Below are positions 17,735 through 51,234 of a DNA stretch of 64,000 nucleotides, piece by piece (position 1 is the stretch's first letter; every line of letters starts with the position of its first letter). The notes below the pieces were generated by a model that was not told the DNA's origin, did no database searches, and worked only from the letters and a program-made list of their open reading frames with translations. The stretch spans positions 62,001 to 126,000 of the forward strand of contig NZ_ABCM01000015.1 in NCBI RefSeq assembly GCF_000170795.1, given 5' to 3'. A program made the position numbers and the translations under genes. The DNA comes from Pedobacter sp. BAL39. GTDB lineage: Bacteria > Bacteroidota > Bacteroidia > Sphingobacteriales > Sphingobacteriaceae.

Positions 17735-18856
17735 GTGGAATTAACCTTAATAGAGAGTTGCTTGCTCGGCTCATTGATCTTTTGCTTCCTTATTCAACTT
17801 TATTTCAGCCTATTTGTGCACCTCAGACTTGCCCGATATACCGTGGAAGAGGTTCCTCAGACTGCCCTGAAACCCCTGAGCGTCGTCATCTGCGCCCGCA
17901 ATGAGGCGGAAAACCTAAAGCGCTACCTGCCGCAGGTAATGGCACAGAATTATCCTGACTTTGAAGTGGTTGTCGTAAATGACCGTTCCTGGGATGGTAC
18001 CCGCGAACTTCTGGAAGAGTTTGCCAAACAAGATAAACGACTCAAAGTCGTGACGATCTCTGAAGGGGAAAAGTTTATCGCCGGAAAGAAGTTCGCTGCC
18101 ACCATGGGAATCAAAGCAGCAAGCAACGAGTGGCTGGTATTTACTGATGCAGATTGCGTGCCGGCATCGGAAAACTGGCTTCTTGGGATGCAGGCGCCTG
18201 CTGATGATCAGATTGCGATCGTCCTTGGGTACTCTCCATATCTTAAAAAATGGGGTCTTCTCAATGCGCTCATCAGGTTTGAAACGTTCTTTACTGCGGT
18301 CAACTATCTTTCTTATGCCATTAAGGGAATGCCCTACATGGGTGTTGGCCGTAATATGGCCTATAAAAAGTCGCTTTTCTTTAAAAATAAGGGCTTCGCA
18401 GCACACATGCACATCCCTTCTGGTGATGATGATCTTTTTGTAAATGCAAATGCCAATCCCACAAATACCGCCATCAGGATCAATAAGGAGGCACATGTAT
18501 GGTCGGAACCGAATACGAGTTTTTTCGCCTACCTGCGTCAGAAAAAGAGACATTTCGGTGCCGGTAAGCTCTATAAGCGCAAACATAAGTTCATCCTTTC
18601 TACACAGATCATCTTCCAGTTTCTCTTTTATGCTTTTCTGGCTGCAGCTTTCTGTATTAAAACCTTGTTATTCCCTACTGCGGTAATCCTGTTGCTCAGC
18701 ATCGTCATCCGCTGCTTCATCTATCCCCGCATCCTCAAGCGCCTGAACTATGGTGACCTGCGCTGGTTTTTCCCGATCCTGGACATTCTATTGTTCATTT
18801 TCCTTATGTTTAATGGCTTTCTGTCTATATTTGTTAAAAAAGTAAAGTGGAAATAA
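17735..18856 (+). CDS. Family 2 glycosyltransferase, membrane-bound
   Basis: A 373-residue GT-A glycosyltransferase. An N-terminal membrane segment (about 8-28) is followed by SVVICARNEAENLKRYLP, the family-2 nucleotide-sugar start, VVVNDRSWDGT, and FTDADCVP, which holds the DxD metal motif; the acceptor region includes GVGRNMAYKK. Two or three membrane segments close the chain. The general layout is like poly-GlcNAc or hyaluronan-type synthases, but the product is unknown. The start is a GTG. The stop overlaps the rsmG start by 10 bases. Confidence 0.85.
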   Translation: MELTLIESCLLGSLIFCFLIQLYFSLFVHLRLARYTVEEVPQTALKPLSVVICARNEAENLKRYLPQVMAQNYPDFEVVVVNDRSWDGTRELLEEFAKQDKRLKVVTISEGEKFIAGKKFAATMGIKAASNEWLVFTDADCVPASENWLLGMQAPADDQIAIVLGYSPYLKKWGLLNALIRFETFFTAVNYLSYAIKGMPYMGVGRNMAYKKSLFFKNKGFAAHMHIPSGDDDLFVNANANPTNTAIRINKEAHVWSEPNTSFFAYLRQKKRHFGAGKLYKRKHKFILSTQIIFQFLFYAFLAAAFCIKTLLFPTAVILLLSIVIRCFIYPRILKRLNYGDLRWFFPILDILLFIFLMFNGFLSIFVKKVKWK

Positions 18857-19479
18857 ACTCATCCTTAATACAAAAATATTTTAAAGACCTGACTGCCCAG
18901 CAACTGGAGCAGTTTGGTCAGCTGTACGAACTGTATAGCTTTTGGAATGCCCAGATCAATGTCATCTCCAGGAAAGATATCGATGAACTTTACATCCGGC
19001 ATGTCCTACACTCCCTTGGGATCGCCAAATTCTGTTCCTTCAAGCCTGGAGAAACTGTCCTTGATGTGGGTACCGGCGGCGGATTCCCAGGGATTCCTCT
19101 TGCTATCCTGTTCCCTGAGACTCAGTTCCACCTGGTCGATTCTATTGGAAAGAAGATTAAAGTAGTTACTGAAGTGGCTGCCGGCCTGGGCCTCAACAAC
19201 GTAAAAGCCAGTCATCTGAGAGCGGAACAGGTAATGGAAAAGTATGATTTCGTCGTCTCAAGGGCGGTAACACGACTCATCGACTTCTATCCGTGGGTGA
19301 AAGGCAAGTTTAAAAAAGACTCCAAAAATGCCATCCCTAATGGTATTCTATACCTTAAAGGGGGAGACCTCACTGAAGAAATCGCCGAAACTAAACTTAA
19401 AGCGGAACTATACCCGCTGTCGGAATATTTTGAGGAAGATTTTTTTGAGACAAAATATGTCGTTTATATCCCCTGCTAA
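18847..19479 (+). CDS. rsmG: 16S rRNA (guanine527-N7)-methyltransferase RsmG
   Basis: A 210-residue SAM-dependent methyltransferase that makes m7G527 in 16S rRNA; loss gives low-level streptomycin resistance in other bacteria. VLDVGTGGGFPGIPLAI is the SAM-binding motif characteristic of RsmG/GidB, followed by FHLVDSIGKKIKVV and VVSRAV. It starts with GTG inside the end of the glycosyltransferase gene, overlapping by 10 bases, so translation is probably coupled. A structured palindromic element begins 28 bases after the stop. Confidence 0.93.
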   Translation: MEINSSLIQKYFKDLTAQQLEQFGQLYELYSFWNAQINVISRKDIDELYIRHVLHSLGIAKFCSFKPGETVLDVGTGGGFPGIPLAILFPETQFHLVDSIGKKIKVVTEVAAGLGLNNVKASHLRAEQVMEKYDFVVSRAVTRLIDFYPWVKGKFKKDSKNAIPNGILYLKGGDLTEEIAETKLKAELYPLSEYFEEDFFETKYVVYIPC

Positions 19480-19506
19480 ATAACATTCCGTTCAAAAGTT
19501 GTAAAT

Positions 19507-19592
19507 AAAAAAAGTTCAAACTCCTTTTCATCCTCAAATCTTCGCTGAAGGGCGAATATTTGGATGTGTTCAAAGGAATTTGAACTTTTTTT
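19507..19592 (+). repeat. Structured intergenic element, copy 1
   Basis: Outer arms 19507-19527 and 19572-19592 pair over 21 positions with one mismatch (AAAAAAAGTTCAAA...TTTGAACTTTTTTT). Inside, 19535-19545 pairs with 19552-19562 as an inner hairpin with one mismatch. The internal loop strands are TCATCCT and GATGTGTTC. Copies 2 and 3 share the layout with different outer arms. It probably also ends the rsmG transcript. Confidence 0.8.
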
Positions 19593-19644
19593 GCAACCGG
19601 CACAATCTCTCTCCAGACAAAGGCAAGGTGGTTAAAAAGGGAAT

Positions 19645-19980: not shown

Positions 19981-21078
19981 ATGGGTATGATTAAAAAGAT
20001 TGCGTTAACGCTGATAAAAAATGTAGGACATGTTACGGCTAAGGCTTTATTAAGCCATTTTGGAAGCCCGGAACGGATATTCGAAGCCAGTAGGGAGGAG
20101 CTGATGGAGGTGCCCGGGGTCGGGATGCTGACTGCCAGGGAGATTTTAAGTAAGGCTTCTTTCCGGATTGCGGAACAGCAAATGGCTTTTATTGGGCGGA
20201 ATGGGGTTCGGGTACTGTTTTATACGGATGATGATTATCCAAAGCGTCTTAGAAATTGCGATGATGCGCCGGTATTGCTGTATTACAAGGGGAATGCAAA
20301 CCTCAACAGGCCGAGAATGATTAGTGTGGTCGGCACCCGGAACGCGACGGAGTATGGGCGGCAAATCTGCAGGGAGCTTGCAGTAGCCCTGGCGCCTTAT
20401 GATGTGACTATTGTCAGCGGTATGGCTTATGGCATTGACATCGCAGCCCACCAGGAAAGCCTGAATGCTAATGTTCCGACCATTGGGGTACTCGCGCATG
20501 GCCTGGACCGCATTTATCCCTCCGGACACTTTGGCGTTGCACAGAAGATGATTGCTGATGGTGGCCTGATTACTGAGTTTCCGCTGTTTACCAGTCCTGA
20601 AAAAGAGAACTTTCCTAAAAGAAACAGGATCATTGCGGGGATGACTGATGCAACCATTGTTGTGGAAGCGGCGGCAAAGGGTGGGGCGCTCATTACCGCG
20701 GATATTGCCAATTCTTATGCCCGGGATGTATATGCTTTTCCTGGAAGGACAACGGATCGCAGCTCCTCGGGATGCAATTTCCTCATTAAAACGAACCAGG
20801 CAGGACTCATCAGCTGCGCGGAAGATCTGATACATAACCTGGGCTGGCAGCCTACAAGGTCAGTGGAGAAAGCCAAAGCGACGCAGGTACAGCTTCCCCT
20901 GGATTTGCTGCCTGAGGAACAATCGTTGATGGGCTGCCTCGCTAAGGGACCGCTGGATATTGATCAGATTGCCCTCAAAATTGCGCTTCCGCAAAGTAAA
21001 ATTGTACTCCATCTGCTAAACCTGGAAATGAATGGCCTGATCACAGCCCTCCCCGGAAAAAGTTACCGCATTTCCTGA
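19981..21078 (+). CDS. dprA: DNA processing protein DprA
   Basis: A 365-residue DprA/Smf, which loads RecA on incoming single-stranded DNA during natural transformation. The N-terminus is a helix-hairpin-helix region (NVGHVTAKALLSHFG, VPGVGMLTAREIL). The Rossmann domain reads SVVGTRNATEYGR, IVSGMAYGIDIAAH, GVLAHGLDRIYP, FPKRNRIIAGM and VVEAAAKGGALITA. A winged-helix-like C-terminal domain (about 300-365) follows, ending LPGKSYRIS. All parts are intact. No other competence gene is in the window. Confidence 0.95.
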   Translation: MGMIKKIALTLIKNVGHVTAKALLSHFGSPERIFEASREELMEVPGVGMLTAREILSKASFRIAEQQMAFIGRNGVRVLFYTDDDYPKRLRNCDDAPVLLYYKGNANLNRPRMISVVGTRNATEYGRQICRELAVALAPYDVTIVSGMAYGIDIAAHQESLNANVPTIGVLAHGLDRIYPSGHFGVAQKMIADGGLITEFPLFTSPEKENFPKRNRIIAGMTDATIVVEAAAKGGALITADIANSYARDVYAFPGRTTDRSSSGCNFLIKTNQAGLISCAEDLIHNLGWQPTRSVEKAKATQVQLPLDLLPEEQSLMGCLAKGPLDIDQIALKIALPQSKIVLHLLNLEMNGLITALPGKSYRIS

Positions 21079-45359: not shown

Positions 45360-47864
45360 ATGAAGAAAATTTACTACCTGATTTTTACGGTGTTTGGTGT
45401 CAGTGCTAATGCCTTTGCGCAGACAAAAACATTCACCATCACCGAGTCGGTTACACCGGCACCTGTTGCAAATTACCAGTTGGCCTCTCGCTTTTCACCT
45501 AATAAATTAAAAAAACTGATTTACTCCACGGCAGTAGATCCGCATTGGCTGAAGCTCAGTAATCGCTTTTGGTATGAGTATGAGACGCCTGCGGGTAAGG
45601 AATGGTACCTGGTGAACCCGTCTTCCAAACAAAAGCTAAAAATGTTTGACCGTGATCGGCTGGCGGCGGAGATCACCACCATCATGCGTGACCCTTTTGA
45701 TGCACAACACCTGCCCCTGGAGAACCTGAAGTTCTCATCCGATGAAAAGAGCATCACCTTCGAGCTGAAGAGCAGCATTGATGAGCTAAAAAAAGACCGT
45801 AAGGATAAAAAAGCCGCTGACTCCATGCAGAAGAAAATTTTCTTCTTCAACTATGAATTTGCAGGAGCGAAGCTCAGCGAAATACCCAACTACACCAAAC
45901 CAAAGGCTAAACCTTCCTGGGGCGCAGTAGCACCGGATTCCTCCGCAGTCATCTTCAGCAGAAACTACAACCTCTACTGGATGGATAAGGCAAATTACCA
46001 GAAAGCGGTAAAAAATGAAGAGGACAGTACGATTGTGGAACATCAGCTTACGAAAAACGGCGAGAAATTTTACGCCTACGGCAGCAATGGTGATGGAGAA
46101 AACAACGAGGAACAGGAAAAGAACAATAAAAAGAGAAGGAGGGCCTTCGTACTGTGGTCGCCAAATGCCAAATATTTCATCCTCAGCCGTACGGACTCCC
46201 GGAAAGTGAAAGACCTCTGGGTCATCAATAACGTAGCCGCAGGAAGGCCTACTCTGGAGACGTATAAGTACCAGATGCCGGGTGAAGCGGAAGCTCCTGT
46301 TGATGAACTGCTGTTGTTCGACTTTAACGCCAAATCGTTCAAAAAGCTGAATACTGCGGCTTTCAAAGATCAGAGCACCGGGGTGTTCTCCGCACCACAG
46401 CTGAATAAGGACCGCGACAATGAGTTCAGGCCGTCATTGTGGCTTGGTGACGACAGCAGGTTTTATTTCTCACGCATCAGCAGGGATCTTAAAAGGGCCG
46501 ATATCGGTACCATCGAGGTGAATAGCGGCAAGGTGACCGTGCTGATTGAGGAGCGTTTCAATACCTATGTGGAGCTCAACAGACCGGCGGTGGTTAATGG
46601 CGGTAAGGAACTGATCCATTGGTCTGAACGTGACGGCTGGGCGCATTTCTACCTCATGGATGGAAATGGCAAACTCAAAAATCAGATCACCAAAGGAAAT
46701 TTTCATTGTGAGGAGATCGTGAATGTAGATGAGAAAAACAGGGTGCTTTATTTTACTGCCAATGGCCGAGAAGTTAAGGAAGATCCCTATTATCTGCACC
46801 TCTACCGCATCAACTTTGACGGTTCCGGACTGAAATTGCTGAATGCGGGCGACTTCGACCATGCCATCAGCATGAATGATGAGGCTAAATTTTTTGTGGA
46901 CAATTTTTCCAGGGTCAACACCGCACCAAAATCGGTATTGTCCGACAATAATGGCCGTGTAATTATGAACCTGGAAACCACAGATTTGTCACTGCTCATG
47001 GCCACTGGTTATAAATTCCCTGAACCATTTAAAGTAAAAGCTGATGACGGCATCACCGACATCTATGGCGTAATGTATAAACCTTTCGACTTCGATCCGG
47101 CAAAGAAATACCCGATCATTGAGTATGTATATCCTGGTCCGCAAACTGAAGCCGTAAATAAGGCCTTCAGCAAAAGCATGGACAGAACGGAACGCCTCGC
47201 TCAGTTCGGATATATCGTTGTTACGGTGGGAAACAGAGGTGGAAATCCGGCACGTTCCAAATGGTACCATACCTACGGCTACGGTAACCTCCGCGACTAC
47301 GGACTGGCAGATAAAAAGGCAGCGGTAGAGCAGCTTGCCGACAGATATCCTTTTATTGACGCGAGCAGAGTGGGGATTACCGGGCACTCCGGCGGAGGCT
47401 TCATGTCCACCGCCGCCATGCTGGTGTATCCTGACTTCTTCAAGGCTGCAGTGTCCAACGCTGGAAATCATGACAATAGCATTTACAACAGATGGTGGAG
47501 TGAGAAACACCATGGTGTGAAAGAAATCGTTTCCGCAAAAGGCGATACGACCTTCAAGTATAGCATCGATAAAAACCCTGATCTTGCAAAAAATCTTAAA
47601 GGGCACCTTTTACTGATGACCGGAGATGTAGATAACAACGTACACCCTGCAAATACCATAAGGGTTGCGAATGCGCTAATGCGGGCCGGTAAAAGGTTTG
47701 AATTTGCCATCATACCCGGACAAAGACATGCTTTTGGCGACCTGACAGAATATGCGTTCTGGAAACTTGCAGACCATTTTAACAAATACCTGATCGGTGA
47801 TTTTACGACACCTCAGCAAGTAAATATCACTGAAATTGACCGCGAGATCGAGCTGAAAAAATAA
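45360..47864 (+). CDS. Exported S9 (dipeptidyl peptidase IV-like) serine peptidase
   Basis: An 834-residue periplasmic peptidase. Residues 1-21 are a signal peptide ending AFAQ. A DPP-IV-type beta-propeller spans about 60-540, with a Lys/Asn/Glu-rich insert near 235-258. The alpha/beta-hydrolase domain has the nucleophile Ser in GHSGGG (about 676), the acid Asp in MTGDVDNNVHP and the His in GQRHAFGD. It cleaves short peptides after the N-terminal X-Pro or X-Ala position in related enzymes. Monocistronic; a structured palindrome begins 2 bases after its stop. Confidence 0.9.
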   Translation: MKKIYYLIFTVFGVSANAFAQTKTFTITESVTPAPVANYQLASRFSPNKLKKLIYSTAVDPHWLKLSNRFWYEYETPAGKEWYLVNPSSKQKLKMFDRDRLAAEITTIMRDPFDAQHLPLENLKFSSDEKSITFELKSSIDELKKDRKDKKAADSMQKKIFFFNYEFAGAKLSEIPNYTKPKAKPSWGAVAPDSSAVIFSRNYNLYWMDKANYQKAVKNEEDSTIVEHQLTKNGEKFYAYGSNGDGENNEEQEKNNKKRRRAFVLWSPNAKYFILSRTDSRKVKDLWVINNVAAGRPTLETYKYQMPGEAEAPVDELLLFDFNAKSFKKLNTAAFKDQSTGVFSAPQLNKDRDNEFRPSLWLGDDSRFYFSRISRDLKRADIGTIEVNSGKVTVLIEERFNTYVELNRPAVVNGGKELIHWSERDGWAHFYLMDGNGKLKNQITKGNFHCEEIVNVDEKNRVLYFTANGREVKEDPYYLHLYRINFDGSGLKLLNAGDFDHAISMNDEAKFFVDNFSRVNTAPKSVLSDNNGRVIMNLETTDLSLLMATGYKFPEPFKVKADDGITDIYGVMYKPFDFDPAKKYPIIEYVYPGPQTEAVNKAFSKSMDRTERLAQFGYIVVTVGNRGGNPARSKWYHTYGYGNLRDYGLADKKAAVEQLADRYPFIDASRVGITGHSGGGFMSTAAMLVYPDFFKAAVSNAGNHDNSIYNRWWSEKHHGVKEIVSAKGDTTFKYSIDKNPDLAKNLKGHLLLMTGDVDNNVHPANTIRVANALMRAGKRFEFAIIPGQRHAFGDLTEYAFWKLADHFNKYLIGDFTTPQQVNITEIDREIELKK

Positions 47865-47865
47865 T

Positions 47866-47942
47866 AAAAAAACAGATGTGTTTTTCGTTCCCAAATCTAT
47901 GAAGGAAAGATTTGCACGTTCTCAAAACACATCTGTTTTTTT
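47866..47942 (+). repeat. Structured intergenic element, copy 2
   Basis: Outer arms 47866-47884 and 47924-47942 pair perfectly over 19 bases (AAAAAAACAGATGTGTTTT). Inner hairpin CAAATCT/AGATTTG at 47892-47898 and 47908-47914. Internal loop strands: TCGTTCC and CACGTTCTC. Nearly the same inner part as copy 3 on its minus strand. It ends in T8, so it probably terminates the S9 peptidase transcript. Confidence 0.85.
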
Positions 47943-47968
47943 TGGAATTTCTCCATGCCGGTCCGAAG

Positions 47969-48220: not shown

Positions 48221-49324
48221 TTAGTTGATCCCCAGTTTCTTTTTCAAGTCTTTTGATAAGGCTGCTTTAGGTACCACAAGGCTGACGGTATTGATGGCGA
48301 AATAGGGCTCTGATACCTCAATGTAACCCTTGAACGGACCGACCGGACCCCAGGAGTTTTTCACCTTGAAAAAATATTTTCCATTTGCAGATTGATCCAG
48401 GCCCACGAGGTGCATAAGGTGATCATCCTGAGTCGTCAGGTTTTCATACAACTGCTGACGAAGTGATGCGGAATAGGCTTTTTCTTTGGCATCGGGGTTT
48501 AGCGGATTGGCCTTTACATCTGCATCATTTTCAAATAACAGCGCATAACCGTTGTCCTGCTGGAAATCGTTGTTGCTGATATCAGCATCCCACATTACGG
48601 TATACCCATCTTTTAAGGACGATTTGGTCAGGTCGATCATTTCTTCTAAAGGGAGGTTGTAGAACGCACCATTTGCGAAGTTGTCCGGTGCCTCAAGCAC
48701 AAATTGAGTATAATAGGGGTGGTGAGTGAAGGAACTGATGCTGACATAATCGTTAGCGTCAAATTTCAACACCTCCTTTGCAAAGGTGATGGGGGTATAA
48801 TTTTTTCCTTTATAGTCAAAGTTGGCTGGCGGTGTACCCATTTTTTTATTGAGAATGGCTTCATAGCCCTGGAGCCAATTTTTATCTAAAGGACGTTTTT
48901 TCAGTACATCATCAAGGTATGTTTTCAATTCATCTGCAAGTCCGCTATGATTGGGTACTTCACCACTTGCACCCTGGAATACCTCCTGTGGCAGGGCTCC
49001 ATAAGTTGCGGTGGCATGGATCAGATCGTGACCAAGTCCGCCTTCACTAAATTGCGCTTTGCCCTGTCTCAGGATATAATTTTTTGCTTTTTCAATGTAG
49101 ACACCACGTGTAGTAAACATCTCAGAAAGGTTGAACTCCCCCAGTCCACGGCGCATTTCCTCAGATTCAATAAGGGAAGTCGTAGAATAGTTCCAGCAGG
49201 TACCTGATTGCCCCTGATCTTTAATATTGGTCGAGGCATTATCTTTAATGGTCTTTAGAGGCGTTTGTGCTTGTGTGGAAAGGACTAATCCTAAACCGCA
49301 GGTGATTAAGAAGATTTTCTTCAT
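48221..49324 (-). CDS. Exported C1-family cysteine peptidase (aminopeptidase C / bleomycin hydrolase type)
   Basis: A 367-residue papain-fold peptidase. Signal peptide 1-20 (ends TQAQ). KDQGQSGTCWNYSTTS holds the oxyanion Gln and nucleophile Cys43; DDHLMHLVGLDQ holds the His; FKVKNSWG the Asn. The Met-His-Leu-Val-Gly order and the length fit the PepC/bleomycin-hydrolase branch, but here it is exported, unlike cytosolic PepC. ATG at 49322-49324 chosen, because MKKIFLI starts a proper signal; the in-frame codons before it do not. It probably works in the periplasm next to the S9 peptidase encoded convergently. Confidence 0.87.
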   Translation of the reverse strand: MKKIFLITCGLGLVLSTQAQTPLKTIKDNASTNIKDQGQSGTCWNYSTTSLIESEEMRRGLGEFNLSEMFTTRGVYIEKAKNYILRQGKAQFSEGGLGHDLIHATATYGALPQEVFQGASGEVPNHSGLADELKTYLDDVLKKRPLDKNWLQGYEAILNKKMGTPPANFDYKGKNYTPITFAKEVLKFDANDYVSISSFTHHPYYTQFVLEAPDNFANGAFYNLPLEEMIDLTKSSLKDGYTVMWDADISNNDFQQDNGYALLFENDADVKANPLNPDAKEKAYSASLRQQLYENLTTQDDHLMHLVGLDQSANGKYFFKVKNSWGPVGPFKGYIEVSEPYFAINTVSLVVPKAALSKDLKKKLGIN

Positions 49325-49722
49325 GTTGATCTGTTGTTGAAGCAACTAATTTAGGGATTTTTCATACCGTTTTTATCATCTGAGCTCCGCGATCTTATTT
49401 TGGCCATGTTTTACAGCCCTGCTGCCCTTCGGATGCTGATATGACCACTCCGCAAGCCTTAAAACAAAGGAACACATCAACCCAAACTCCCCCCACAAAA
49501 AAAGTACAGCCCTGCCCCACTTAGCATTCCACTTTCCTCCAGTAGGCACCAACAAGTAACATTTATGGACCATCGTCCTCTGCAATATGATATAGTAAGA
49601 TGCAGAAATAAAACAGGTGTTCTTTTGAGGACGTGCAAATCTTTTCTTCAAAGATTTGGGGACGAAAAAAACACCTGTTTTATTTCAATTAACAAAATCA
49701 TTTTTGCTTGTTTAAACGTTAT
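49325..49722. other. Divergent intergenic region holding element copy 3
   Basis: A 398-bp gap between the C1 peptidase and GH130 genes. It contains element copy 3 (49606-49685). A 91-codon minus-strand frame (49376-49651) runs into the element and has no recognisable content. No clear -7 box was found for either gene. Confidence 0.55.
49606..49685 (-). repeat. Structured intergenic element, copy 3
   Basis: Outer arms 49606-49626 and 49665-49685 pair over 21 positions with one mismatch (AAATAAAACAGGTGT core). Inner hairpin CAAATCTTT/AAAGATTTG at 49636-49644 and 49650-49658. Read on the minus strand the loop strands are CGTCCC and CACGTCCTC, close to copy 2. It lies 37 bases before the GH130 start and about 280 before the C1 peptidase start, so unlike the other copies it does not follow a stop codon. 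Confidence 0.85.
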
Positions 49723-51234
49723 ATGGTTATGAGATTACTAGTAGAACGAAAGCCGGTAAAGGTATATCCAGATCCTAAGAGAGTCATTGCCCGTTTTTTC
49801 TTTAATGGAGATGAACGTGCTGAGGAGGTGGTCAAGCATGTTATGTCGTTGACAGACAAGCAGGTGTTCGGGATTATATCACCTTTGCTGCAGGAATATT
49901 CCAAGCGGCACCGTAACATCACCAAGATCCTTACGCGTCATTGTAAGAAGGTGATGCGTCGTATTGAGGCGGCCGGTTTTGATCCGGAGTCGTTGGATAA
50001 GTATCAGCGTTTGCTGATTGGTTCATACTTTACGCATGAGTATTCCATTGAATCTGCTGCATTTTTCAATCCATCGATTGTGGAAGACCCGGATCAGACC
50101 GAGCTCGTAGAGGGTGAAAAACGCGTCATCATCAGCTTCAGGGCGGTAGGTGAAGGGCATATCTCGTCAGTTGTGTTCAGAAGGGCTTTGATTGATAGAG
50201 ACAACAACATCACGGTAATCCCTGCAGGTAACTATATCGATGAGGCAGAGGTCGTAAAAAATGCCGTTTACAATAAGAAACTGTTTCTGAAGAAGGCGAT
50301 TGATTCCAAAATTGATGTCGAGGTACTGGACGAACTGGGAGGAAAGCTGGAAGATAAGTTCGATTATGCCACACTGAGAAAAATTATCATCGACGGCAAG
50401 AGCCTGCAGGAGGACGACCTGAAGAAGTTACAATATGATAAGATCCTGTGGTTATCAGATACCTATCATGAAATCAGTTTCTCCAGGGATACTGATATAT
50501 CTGACAGGGTGATCTTCCCGATTTCAGAATTTGAGCGCAAGGGGATAGAGGATGCACGTTTTGTAAGGTTCACGAAGGACGACGGGTCTGTAATTTATTA
50601 CGCCACTTACACCGCTTTTGATGGAGCGATGATCATGCCTAAGCTGTTGCAGACCACAGATTTTTACGATTTTAAAATCAGCCCGCTGCATGGCGTGGGT
50701 GCGCAGAACAAAAACCTGGCCCTATTTCCGAGGAAGATCAAGGGTAAATATGTAATGATGTCACGTATTGACGGATGGAATAACTACCTGATGTATTCAG
50801 ATAAACTAACGGTATGGGACAACCCGGTGAAGCTGCAGTCCCCAAAATTCCCCTGGGAATTTATACAGATTGGGAATTGTGGTTCTCCGATAGAGACGCC
50901 AGATGGCTGGCTTGTCATTACCCATGGCGTCGGGCCTATGCGCCGCTATTGCCTGGGCGCAAGTCTGTTTGATCTGGAAGATCCTTCGAGGGAAATTGGA
51001 CGACTGGAGGAGCCCTTGGTAGTACCGAATAACGATGAGCGTGAAGGTTATGTGCCGAATGTTTTGTATTCCTGCGGGTCCATCATACACAATGGTGAGC
51101 TGATCATACCTTATGGACTATCCGATTATTGCTCTTCATTTGCTTCGGTAAAAATAGACCTGGTATTAGAGAAACTGAAAAATTCGGCCCTGGCGATACT
51201 TAACGAAGACGAGCAGGTCATTCAGCCTTCTTAA
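49723..51234 (+). CDS. GH130-family mannoside phosphorylase/hydrolase
   Basis: A 503-residue five-bladed propeller enzyme of the GH130 class. The first 100 residues form a helical N-terminal part; the propeller begins near FFNPSIVEDPDQTE and contains SFRAVGEGHISSV, GIEDARFVRF with the GxEDxR motif, MMSRIDGWNNYLM, GNCGSPIETPDGWLVITHG and VPNVLYSCG. Members cleave or phosphorolyse beta-1,2- or beta-1,4-mannosides; the long form with N-terminal helices may be a hydrolase. Convergent with two GT4 genes, suggesting a mannose-type glycan made and turned over at one locus. Start: ATG at 49723 (49729 also possible). Confidence 0.85.
   Translation: MVMRLLVERKPVKVYPDPKRVIARFFFNGDERAEEVVKHVMSLTDKQVFGIISPLLQEYSKRHRNITKILTRHCKKVMRRIEAAGFDPESLDKYQRLLIGSYFTHEYSIESAAFFNPSIVEDPDQTELVEGEKRVIISFRAVGEGHISSVVFRRALIDRDNNITVIPAGNYIDEAEVVKNAVYNKKLFLKKAIDSKIDVEVLDELGGKLEDKFDYATLRKIIIDGKSLQEDDLKKLQYDKILWLSDTYHEISFSRDTDISDRVIFPISEFERKGIEDARFVRFTKDDGSVIYYATYTAFDGAMIMPKLLQTTDFYDFKISPLHGVGAQNKNLALFPRKIKGKYVMMSRIDGWNNYLMYSDKLTVWDNPVKLQSPKFPWEFIQIGNCGSPIETPDGWLVITHGVGPMRRYCLGASLFDLEDPSREIGRLEEPLVVPNNDEREGYVPNVLYSCGSIIHNGELIIPYGLSDYCSSFASVKIDLVLEKLKNSALAILNEDEQVIQPS

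Follow-up and report, generated by a model that had tools for sequence, protein, structure and literature searches.

Three intergenic hairpins raise the question whether a structure that recurs past gene ends does more, as RNA, than end transcription. They lie in the window, the whole stretch of 64,000 nucleotides analysed here (Pedobacter sp. BAL39, contig NZ_ABCM01000015.1, positions 62,001 to 126,000; Table 1). The original prediction, made from the sequence alone, had placed one structured element at each site, and all three were indeed found there, each folding into a long hairpin (predicted folds of -34.4, -26.7 and -36.4 kcal/mol for 19500-19600, 47860-47950 and 49598-49692, respectively, on the strand used in that prediction, below called the reader's strand). 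Copies 2 and 3 form a convergent + / - pair with a gap of 1661 bp.

Table 1. Copies of the element in the window, parts of copy 2, and middle helices of the subtypes (subtype names are those of this analysis)
Feature	Position	Strand	Description or basis
Copy 1	19507-19592	+	Composite hairpin, subtype B, 27 nt past the rsmG stop codon (18847-19479 +)
Copy 2	47866-47942	+	Composite hairpin, subtype A, 1 nt past the stop of the 834-aa S9 peptidase gene (45360-47864 +)
Copy 2, outer helix, 5' arm including A run	47866-47884	+	Fold; partner 47924-47942
Copy 2, loop 1, 5' strand UUC (complement GAA)	47884-47886	+	Alignment, position set by hand
Copy 2, apical loop region AUGAAGGAA	47899-47907	+	Fold and alignment
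Copy 2, loop 1, 3' strand UCA (complement UGA)	47922-47924	+	Alignment, position set by hand
Copy 2, outer helix, 3' arm and U run	47924-47942	+	Fold
Copy 3	49606-49684	-	Composite hairpin, subtype A, between divergent C1-peptidase (48221-49345 -) and GH130 (49708-51234 +) genes
Subtypes A, B			Middle helix G-C or A-U plus UC.UC mismatches
Subtype D			Middle helix GGAC/GUCC
Subtype E			Middle helix GCC/GGC
Subtype F			Middle helix AAAGAC/GUCUUU
Type II			Middle helix AAAGGC/GCCUUU and relatives

A BLASTN search of the strain's own genome (5.79 Mb, 47 contigs) with copy 2 returned copies 2 and 3 and five further places; the copy 1 site and the type II elements were initially not recovered in this way. 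The first covariance model (R1) was built from these seven copies and copy 1. Against the own 5.79 Mb genome this eight-copy model gave 38 matches at E <= 10 (best 150 of 1527 candidates scored) and 26 distinct places at E <= 2e-4. Eighteen of the latter were outside the training set, confirming that the family extends beyond the three copies, as had been predicted. A second model (R2; 29 copies, 24 of them from the own genome) gave 39 matches at E <= 1, which were reduced to 32 distinct places by dropping second-strand matches. The hairpin, about 85 nt long, is present at at least 32 intergenic places in the own genome, where all copy counts are lower bounds (best 150 of 1527 or of 2752 candidates scored).

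Chance or low complexity was ruled out by the controls of a strict hand-written descriptor of the shared features and by the covariation score. The descriptor, which misses many known copies, had 11 matches in 1.26 Mb (one of which, at 1511553 in genome G250, looks spurious) and none in reversed and Markov control sequence. The 29-row alignment had a covariation score of 0.564, against 0.155 when shuffled and at most 0.169 when slid; 89.8% of its cells were paired and 183 cells had changed on both sides. The hairpin family is real and conserved, and the covariation predicted for the outer stem is present in the further intergenic matches.

The hairpins lie dispersed in the intergenic DNA of Pedobacter, a group of soil bacteria. 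At E <= 0.01, R1 matched 10 of 41 genomes, the own genome included, all of the same genus, and there was no match in 15 of the 24 other genus members or in any of the 16 genomes of other families. The copies anticipated in relatives were therefore found, but in one genus only. A wider, insensitive census (best 30 candidates per genome) gave a match in 3 of 151 genomes, the own genome included, and a subtype B pattern occurred in Pedobacter records only, among them Pedobacter steynii DSM 19110 and P. caeni DSM 16990. In addition to R2 we used a covariance model rich in type II elements (R3). Among the matches listed, 52 elements were present in G250, 40 in G217, 31 in G227, 15 in G213 and 2 in G158; four close relatives carry at least 15 to at least 52 detected copies, and other genus members fewer or none.

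Aligned on the reader's strand, the orientation of the original prediction, the element has an outer helix with an A run at its 5' end and a U run at its 3' end, followed inwards by loop 1, the middle helix, a C-G pair, the 1 x 3 loop, the inner helix and the apical loop. What had been described as a single asymmetric internal loop is in fact two loops split by the covarying middle helix. Loop 1 is UUC (5' side) opposite UCA (3' side), exact in 27 of the 37 entries with distinct arms, and loop 2, the 1 x 3 loop, is U opposite YAU or similar. The middle helix (1-6 bp) occurs as G-C, A-U, GCC/GGC, AAA/UUU or GAAGGC/GCCUUC and ends in a nearly invariant C-G pair (27 of 29); its columns 24 and 69 hold A-U 11 times, G-C 10 times, C-G 5 times, U-A once and G-U once, with one unpaired cell. 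Judged from the alignment, this helix is the best sign of structure. The apical loop, UGAA(G/A)(G/A), which was absent from the earlier description, is among the most conserved parts.

The loop strands CGTYCC and CACGTYCTC, first reported for the element as such, are the signature of subtype A alone; copy 1 belongs to another subtype, with CATCC on the 5' side, and a 5'-side CGTC was seen in 4 of the 29 aligned rows, in subtype A only. As for the proposed conservation of the loop, the architecture is kept across species, but the loop letters vary across the family. The outer helix (16-20 bp) has little sequence in common between copies, and its strong covariation agrees with the proposal that the stems differ and still pair, except that the stems of copies 2 and 3 are alike (ACAGATGTG / ACAGGTGT). 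Core letters of subtype B read CCTCAAAT..GCATGTC at most sites of the own genome and CCCCGAAT..GAATGTC in other species, and this difference suggests either homogenisation between copies or a co-evolving partner.

The position of the elements was scored with simple ORF calls (>= 90 aa) at 29 of the 32 own places and at 31 loci of relatives. A same-strand stop codon was present at most 80 nt upstream in 20 of the 29 and 27 of the 31 loci, and the mirror (antisense) arrangement in 5 and 4, respectively; these counts keep orthologs (the rsmG site accounts for seven of those in relatives), and some spurious ORFs overlap the elements. Most elements lie no more than ~110 nt beyond a stop codon, and convergent gene pairs are their commonest setting. 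The upstream genes are unrelated (rsmG, S9 peptidase, enolase, chorismate synthase, DEAD helicase, aminotransferase and mechanosensitive channel, all Pfam-confirmed; other upstream proteins were classed by eye). A regulon was ruled out on this basis, and the diversity of upstream genes therefore indicates a terminator-like class. The elements have a stable stem-loop followed immediately by a U run, and most lie just past a stop codon, as expected of intrinsic terminators; from these sequence features, the hairpins probably stop transcription.

Further likenesses to intrinsic terminators are compensation in the stem, as described for those of Bacillus cereus (PMC5381666), and use by convergent genes. 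Unlike them, the elements are ~85 nt long, have two conserved internal loops and an apical motif, show wobble pairs on the opposite strand, and form a clade-specific repeat family arranged in convergent pairs. Three copies (window 49606-49708, L073 and L128) do not follow a stop codon but are antisense to a long ORF that begins 22-42 nt further on (GH130 for the window copy); they would therefore sit in a 5' leader. The C1-peptidase gene was also considered as cargo of the copy 2/copy 3 pair. By eye this is probably not the case, because the end of a resembling gene adjoins a plain terminator in relatives such as L095.

The copy 1 element past rsmG is also present in seven other species. Mean pairwise identity among the eight species at this site was 94.0% in the core and 53.8% in the outer arms, compared with 81.4% in the last ~300 nt of the coding sequence and 51.2% in the downstream flank. 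At orthologous sites the outer arms diverge yet still pair. A series of copy 2 sequences (A6, 10 sequences) gave 83.1% in the core and 59.1% in the arms. For the gene preceding copy 2, 118 relatives were searched and 29 examined, of which 9 had a core-bearing hairpin; most of the others had a plain hairpin with different letters, a few had no clear hairpin, and L115 had a long hairpin whose internal loops differ in sequence.

The compensatory changes had been taken to point to selection on an RNA fold, and the conserved internal loop to a role beyond termination. The elements are more than plain terminators, but the reasons offered were insufficient. Compensatory change by itself does not demonstrate such a role, because ordinary intrinsic terminators evolve likewise: according to PMC5381666, compensatory evolution is normal in those of Bacillus cereus.

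At the 3' end of the enolase gene, the core was identified by eye in 8 of 16 genomes (the own genome, G247, G217, G216 and G250, and as a variant core in G257, G213 and G220). In G227 (L264) and G253 (L258) the inner hairpin has apparently been lost between direct repeats (GTCCTCAAA), and in G227 a remnant loop lies inverted inside the outer stem. By such a deletion a composite terminator could turn naturally into a plain one. In G158 the outer stem is similar and the core is missing, and the remaining five genomes have plain hairpins. The mechanosensitive-channel gene was matched in 11 of the 16 genomes; the unit follows it in G216, G217, G247 and G250, and a plain hairpin or none in G227, the own genome, G158, G002, G268, G252 and G012. 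In the channel-gene unit of G216 (L242), the spacer after the first hairpin looks swollen with short degenerate repeats of the GATCAG..TATTTGA type.

The convergent layout of copies 2 and 3 recurs. With R2 alone and a 3 kb limit, 26 of 28 neighbours among the matches listed were convergent, 1 divergent and 1 tandem, while 1.76 neighbour pairs of any orientation were expected at random. With R3 added, the matches listed contained 56 convergent, 0 divergent and 1 tandem neighbours within 2.6 kb. Convergent pairs comprised, among the matches listed, 42 of 52 elements in G250, 24 of 31 in G227, 26 of 40 in G217, 8 of 15 in G213, 12 of 32 in the own genome and 0 of 2 in G158 (R3 matches only for G217, G213 and G158). 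Gaps between the partners detected in the own genome were 679-2299 bp. Among 31 named Pedobacter stretches retrieved with one subtype B pattern, 27 had a convergent partner at 89-1900 bp, 17 of these at 89-189 bp; three of those without a partner lie near the edge of their stretch and the fourth has no partner. In copy-rich relatives, where gaps are often ~90-190 bp, the common unit is the convergent pair rather than the single hairpin.

Of the 21 pairs in G250, 20 were examined: 11 combined A/B with II, 5 II with II, 1 E with E, 1 E with II, and 2 were others. In 18 of the 20 the gene on the left is directed towards the unit, as is the gene on the right in 17, and 4 of the 20 pairs lack convergent flanking genes. 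Several type II copies in this genome have outer arms in common across loci. Beside each hairpin, spacer-side blocks of ~35-45 nt are conserved and the centre is variable (one orthologous unit group aligned); similar blocks recur between loci, and the units appear to have been spread by copying. Kissing of the partners' apical loops was ruled out by a 6-mer comparison without a sign of matched change, the apical 6-mers being equal in 12 of 20 pairs and differing on one side only in the rest. Outer arms were no more alike between partners than between pairs (0.52 and 0.52).

The covariation is in line with selection on a fold, as originally proposed, but the wobble pairs point to the strand opposite to the reader's. 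According to PMC5381666, G.U is the intermediate in 89.5% of the A-U/G-C switches with an inferred intermediate in Bacillus cereus terminators. If the transcript of the reader's strand were selected, G.U would therefore be expected to exceed A.C among mismatched transitions. In the outer helix we counted 37 A.C and 3 G.U on this strand (p 2e-8) in the 37 entries with distinct arms, drawn from 100 entries (29 own, and 31 and 40 from relatives, with four G250 places included twice and orthologs included). All 100 entries, with related arms kept, gave 90 A.C and 31 G.U; the distinct-arm count was used instead. Part of the A.C excess may be one recurrent feature, since 23 of the 37 A.C pairs are at outer-helix positions 4-6; without these positions the counts were 14 A.C vs 1 G.U. 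The inner helix had 8 G.U and 14 A.C (45 distinct sequences), which by itself does not settle the strand. Plain one-sided hairpins had 6 G.U to 1 A.C (21 hairpins, p 0.125, a small control), and plain two-sided hairpins 5 G.U to 6 A.C (24 hairpins).

On the complement strand the A.C pairs become G.U, loop 1 reads UGA/GAA, that is a U-A pair plus tandem G.A, the UC.UC mismatches found in subtypes A, B and E turn into another tandem G.A, the U/YAU loop reads AUG/A and the apical loop UUCA. The complement was predicted to be more stable in 87 of the 100 entries with RNA parameters and in 82 with DNA parameters (mean predicted stability -34.7 kcal/mol, against -30.5 kcal/mol for the reader's strand). 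The reader's strand has the slightly longer U run (longest T run 6.69 vs 6.10 on average over the 100 entries, with the reader's strand ahead in 45, behind in 14 and level in 41; p 2e-5). As the reader's strand has A.C in place of G.U among its outer-helix transitions, structural selection may act on the complement. The strand signals disagree: stop-codon position and U run favour the reader's strand, wobble and stability the complement. At copy 1 and at the 4 of 20 G250 pairs that lack convergent flanking genes, no known transcript would run along the complement strand. Given the wobble polarity together with the convergent pairs, a role at the DNA level is therefore possible.

Comparison with described systems did not yield a match. 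The proposed Rfam search gave no family at or above the gathering threshold in the window (Rfam 15) and none that was convincing in the element loci, where weak matches to miRNA, snoRNA and lncRNA models in 5 and 7 loci were far below gathering; a known RNA family was thereby ruled out. Pedo-repair RNA (RF01715), a candidate RNA reported in Pedobacter (PMC2864571, Table 1), had no match in the window at gathering score, nor in 12 element loci at relaxed E-values. The same table lists the GUCCY-hairpin motif, a hairpin candidate for Bacteroidetes, with no Rfam number given (Weinberg et al. 2010); the GUCCY of its name is contained in subtype A cores, a likeness that concerns the table row alone.

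As in REP, REPIN and BIME elements (PMC3733652), we found intergenic palindromes in inverted doublets, often of two types and sometimes with DNA between the partners (G250 42/52 elements among the matches listed, own genome 12/32). REPs and REPINs are palindromes of 20-40 bp that carry an unpaired tag, GTAG or CGTC. The present elements differ from them in being ~85 nt long, in ending in A and U runs, in their mostly copy-specific outer arms, and in having a 5'-side CGTC in only 4 of 29 aligned rows. CGTC-tagged REPs, reported in Bacteroidetes and without a dedicated transposase (PMC3733652), have a similar paired layout and likewise no transposase, but differ in size, tag and ends. Mobilisation by a RAYT was ruled out for the own genome, in which Y1_Tnp (PF01797) had 0 matches while 5 of 14 control genomes were positive. 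Occurrence on phages or plasmids found no support in searches of viral contigs (no exact match to one subtype B pattern) and of 72,556 plasmids (no match to copy 2). No paper describing the hairpin family was found in the open literature, subscription papers and preprints being outside its scope; as far as could be found in the literature searched, the conserved inner structure and the paired layout are undescribed.

Our favoured explanation, held tentatively at a probability of about 0.45, is a clade-specific dispersed Pedobacter repeat made of convergent hairpin pairs, each half doubling as an intrinsic terminator. Observed directly are the family and its covariation, its position at gene ends, the pairing in copy-rich relatives, and core conservation in place with compensatory drift of the arms. 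The common unit would be two composite hairpins of ~85 nt in inverted orientation, separated by a spacer that often measures 90-190 bp. Each hairpin is expected to end transcription as an intrinsic terminator, and the core (UUC/UCA, U/YAU and UGAA loops) may be recognised by a protein or RNase at the mRNA 3' end. The structured strand would be the one that leads outwards from the pair. Each hairpin may thus terminate the far gene's transcript, in which case convergent mRNAs would overlap. Termination does not account for the spacer-side conserved blocks of ~35-45 nt, and the low share of elements with a detected partner in the own genome (12 of 32) also speaks against this explanation. A more specific version, which we consider unlikely, is that the terminators depend on orientation, the near hairpin of a facing pair being read through and the far one stopping transcription, with a 3' overlap of ~250-360 nt. 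The tandem G.A loops and the G.U-tolerant helix would then fold best in transcripts leaving the spacer, and the hairpin would fold less well in the adjacent gene's own transcript. If this were true, facing pairs would be a genome-wide layer of built-in 3' antisense coupling that has spread as a repeat.

The main competing explanation, somewhat unlikely in our view, is a non-autonomous mobile DNA unit like a REPIN or BIME, formed by two inverted palindromes with conserved subterminal blocks, whose single-stranded hairpins would be recognised by a transposase or recombinase, with gene-end position and terminator-like ends marking where insertions are tolerated. Such a unit would account for the orientation of neighbours among the matches listed (56 convergent, 0 divergent and 1 tandem within 2.6 kb; 26, 1 and 1 with R2 alone at 3 kb), for conserved spacer-side blocks around a variable centre and for the outer arms common to several G250 type II copies. 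Presence that varies between species at one site, and a complement that is more stable with DNA parameters too (82/100 entries), are also in line with it. It does not sit well with the orthologous sites, where the core is better conserved than coding sequence and the arms diverge and still pair, and it found no support in the viral contigs (one subtype B pattern), the plasmids (copy 2) or the Y1_Tnp search, which covered only this transposase and the own genome.

Wobble polarity and stability, both favouring the strand that leads out of the pair, and the conserved ~35-45 nt block 5' of the hairpin on that outward strand could also reflect a small RNA gene in each half. It would be transcribed out of the spacer with hairpin and U run as its 3' end, a pair then being two divergent small RNAs. 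The spacer centre is short and poorly conserved, however (one unit group aligned), and the Bacteroidetes-type promoter consensus TAnnTTTG was not enriched in the 130 nt upstream (2/69 vs 3.5 in shuffles), which makes this improbable. Equally improbable are ordinary bidirectional intrinsic terminators whose core is common by descent only and has no function of its own. Their anatomy is that of the elements, some orthologous sites keep a hairpin but lack the core, and compensatory evolution is normal for terminators (PMC5381666). Bidirectional use, however, predicts equal G.U and A.C, as in plain two-sided hairpins (5 vs 6), whereas 3 vs 37 were observed; in-place identity is 94% in the core but 81% in coding sequence, a difference to which homogenisation between copies could contribute; and the pairing is unexplained.

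A repeat of paired terminators, as favoured here, would connect terminators to inverted palindromic repeats. If the pairs make convergent mRNAs overlap, gene ends would be arranged in a new way. Tens of copies per genome and their orthologous sites form a large natural replicate set that allows outer stem, loops, strand and pairing to be examined one by one. The strand polarity of wobble pairs offers a sequence-only test of the working strand of a palindrome.

Two minor observations concern single copies. The gene downstream of copy 1 (window 19981-21078) matches DprA, involved in DNA processing in natural transformation. Uptake sequences of other bacteria also form paired terminators, but the present element occurs in far fewer copies. 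An isolated copy (L004/L025) has a short outer stem and is directly preceded by a tandem repeat of ~81 nt in about three copies, one frame of which is open as GLAVREYLSFPHITLTLHSRRAIENAV (L004 1227-1480, own contig C31, ~56.8 kb).
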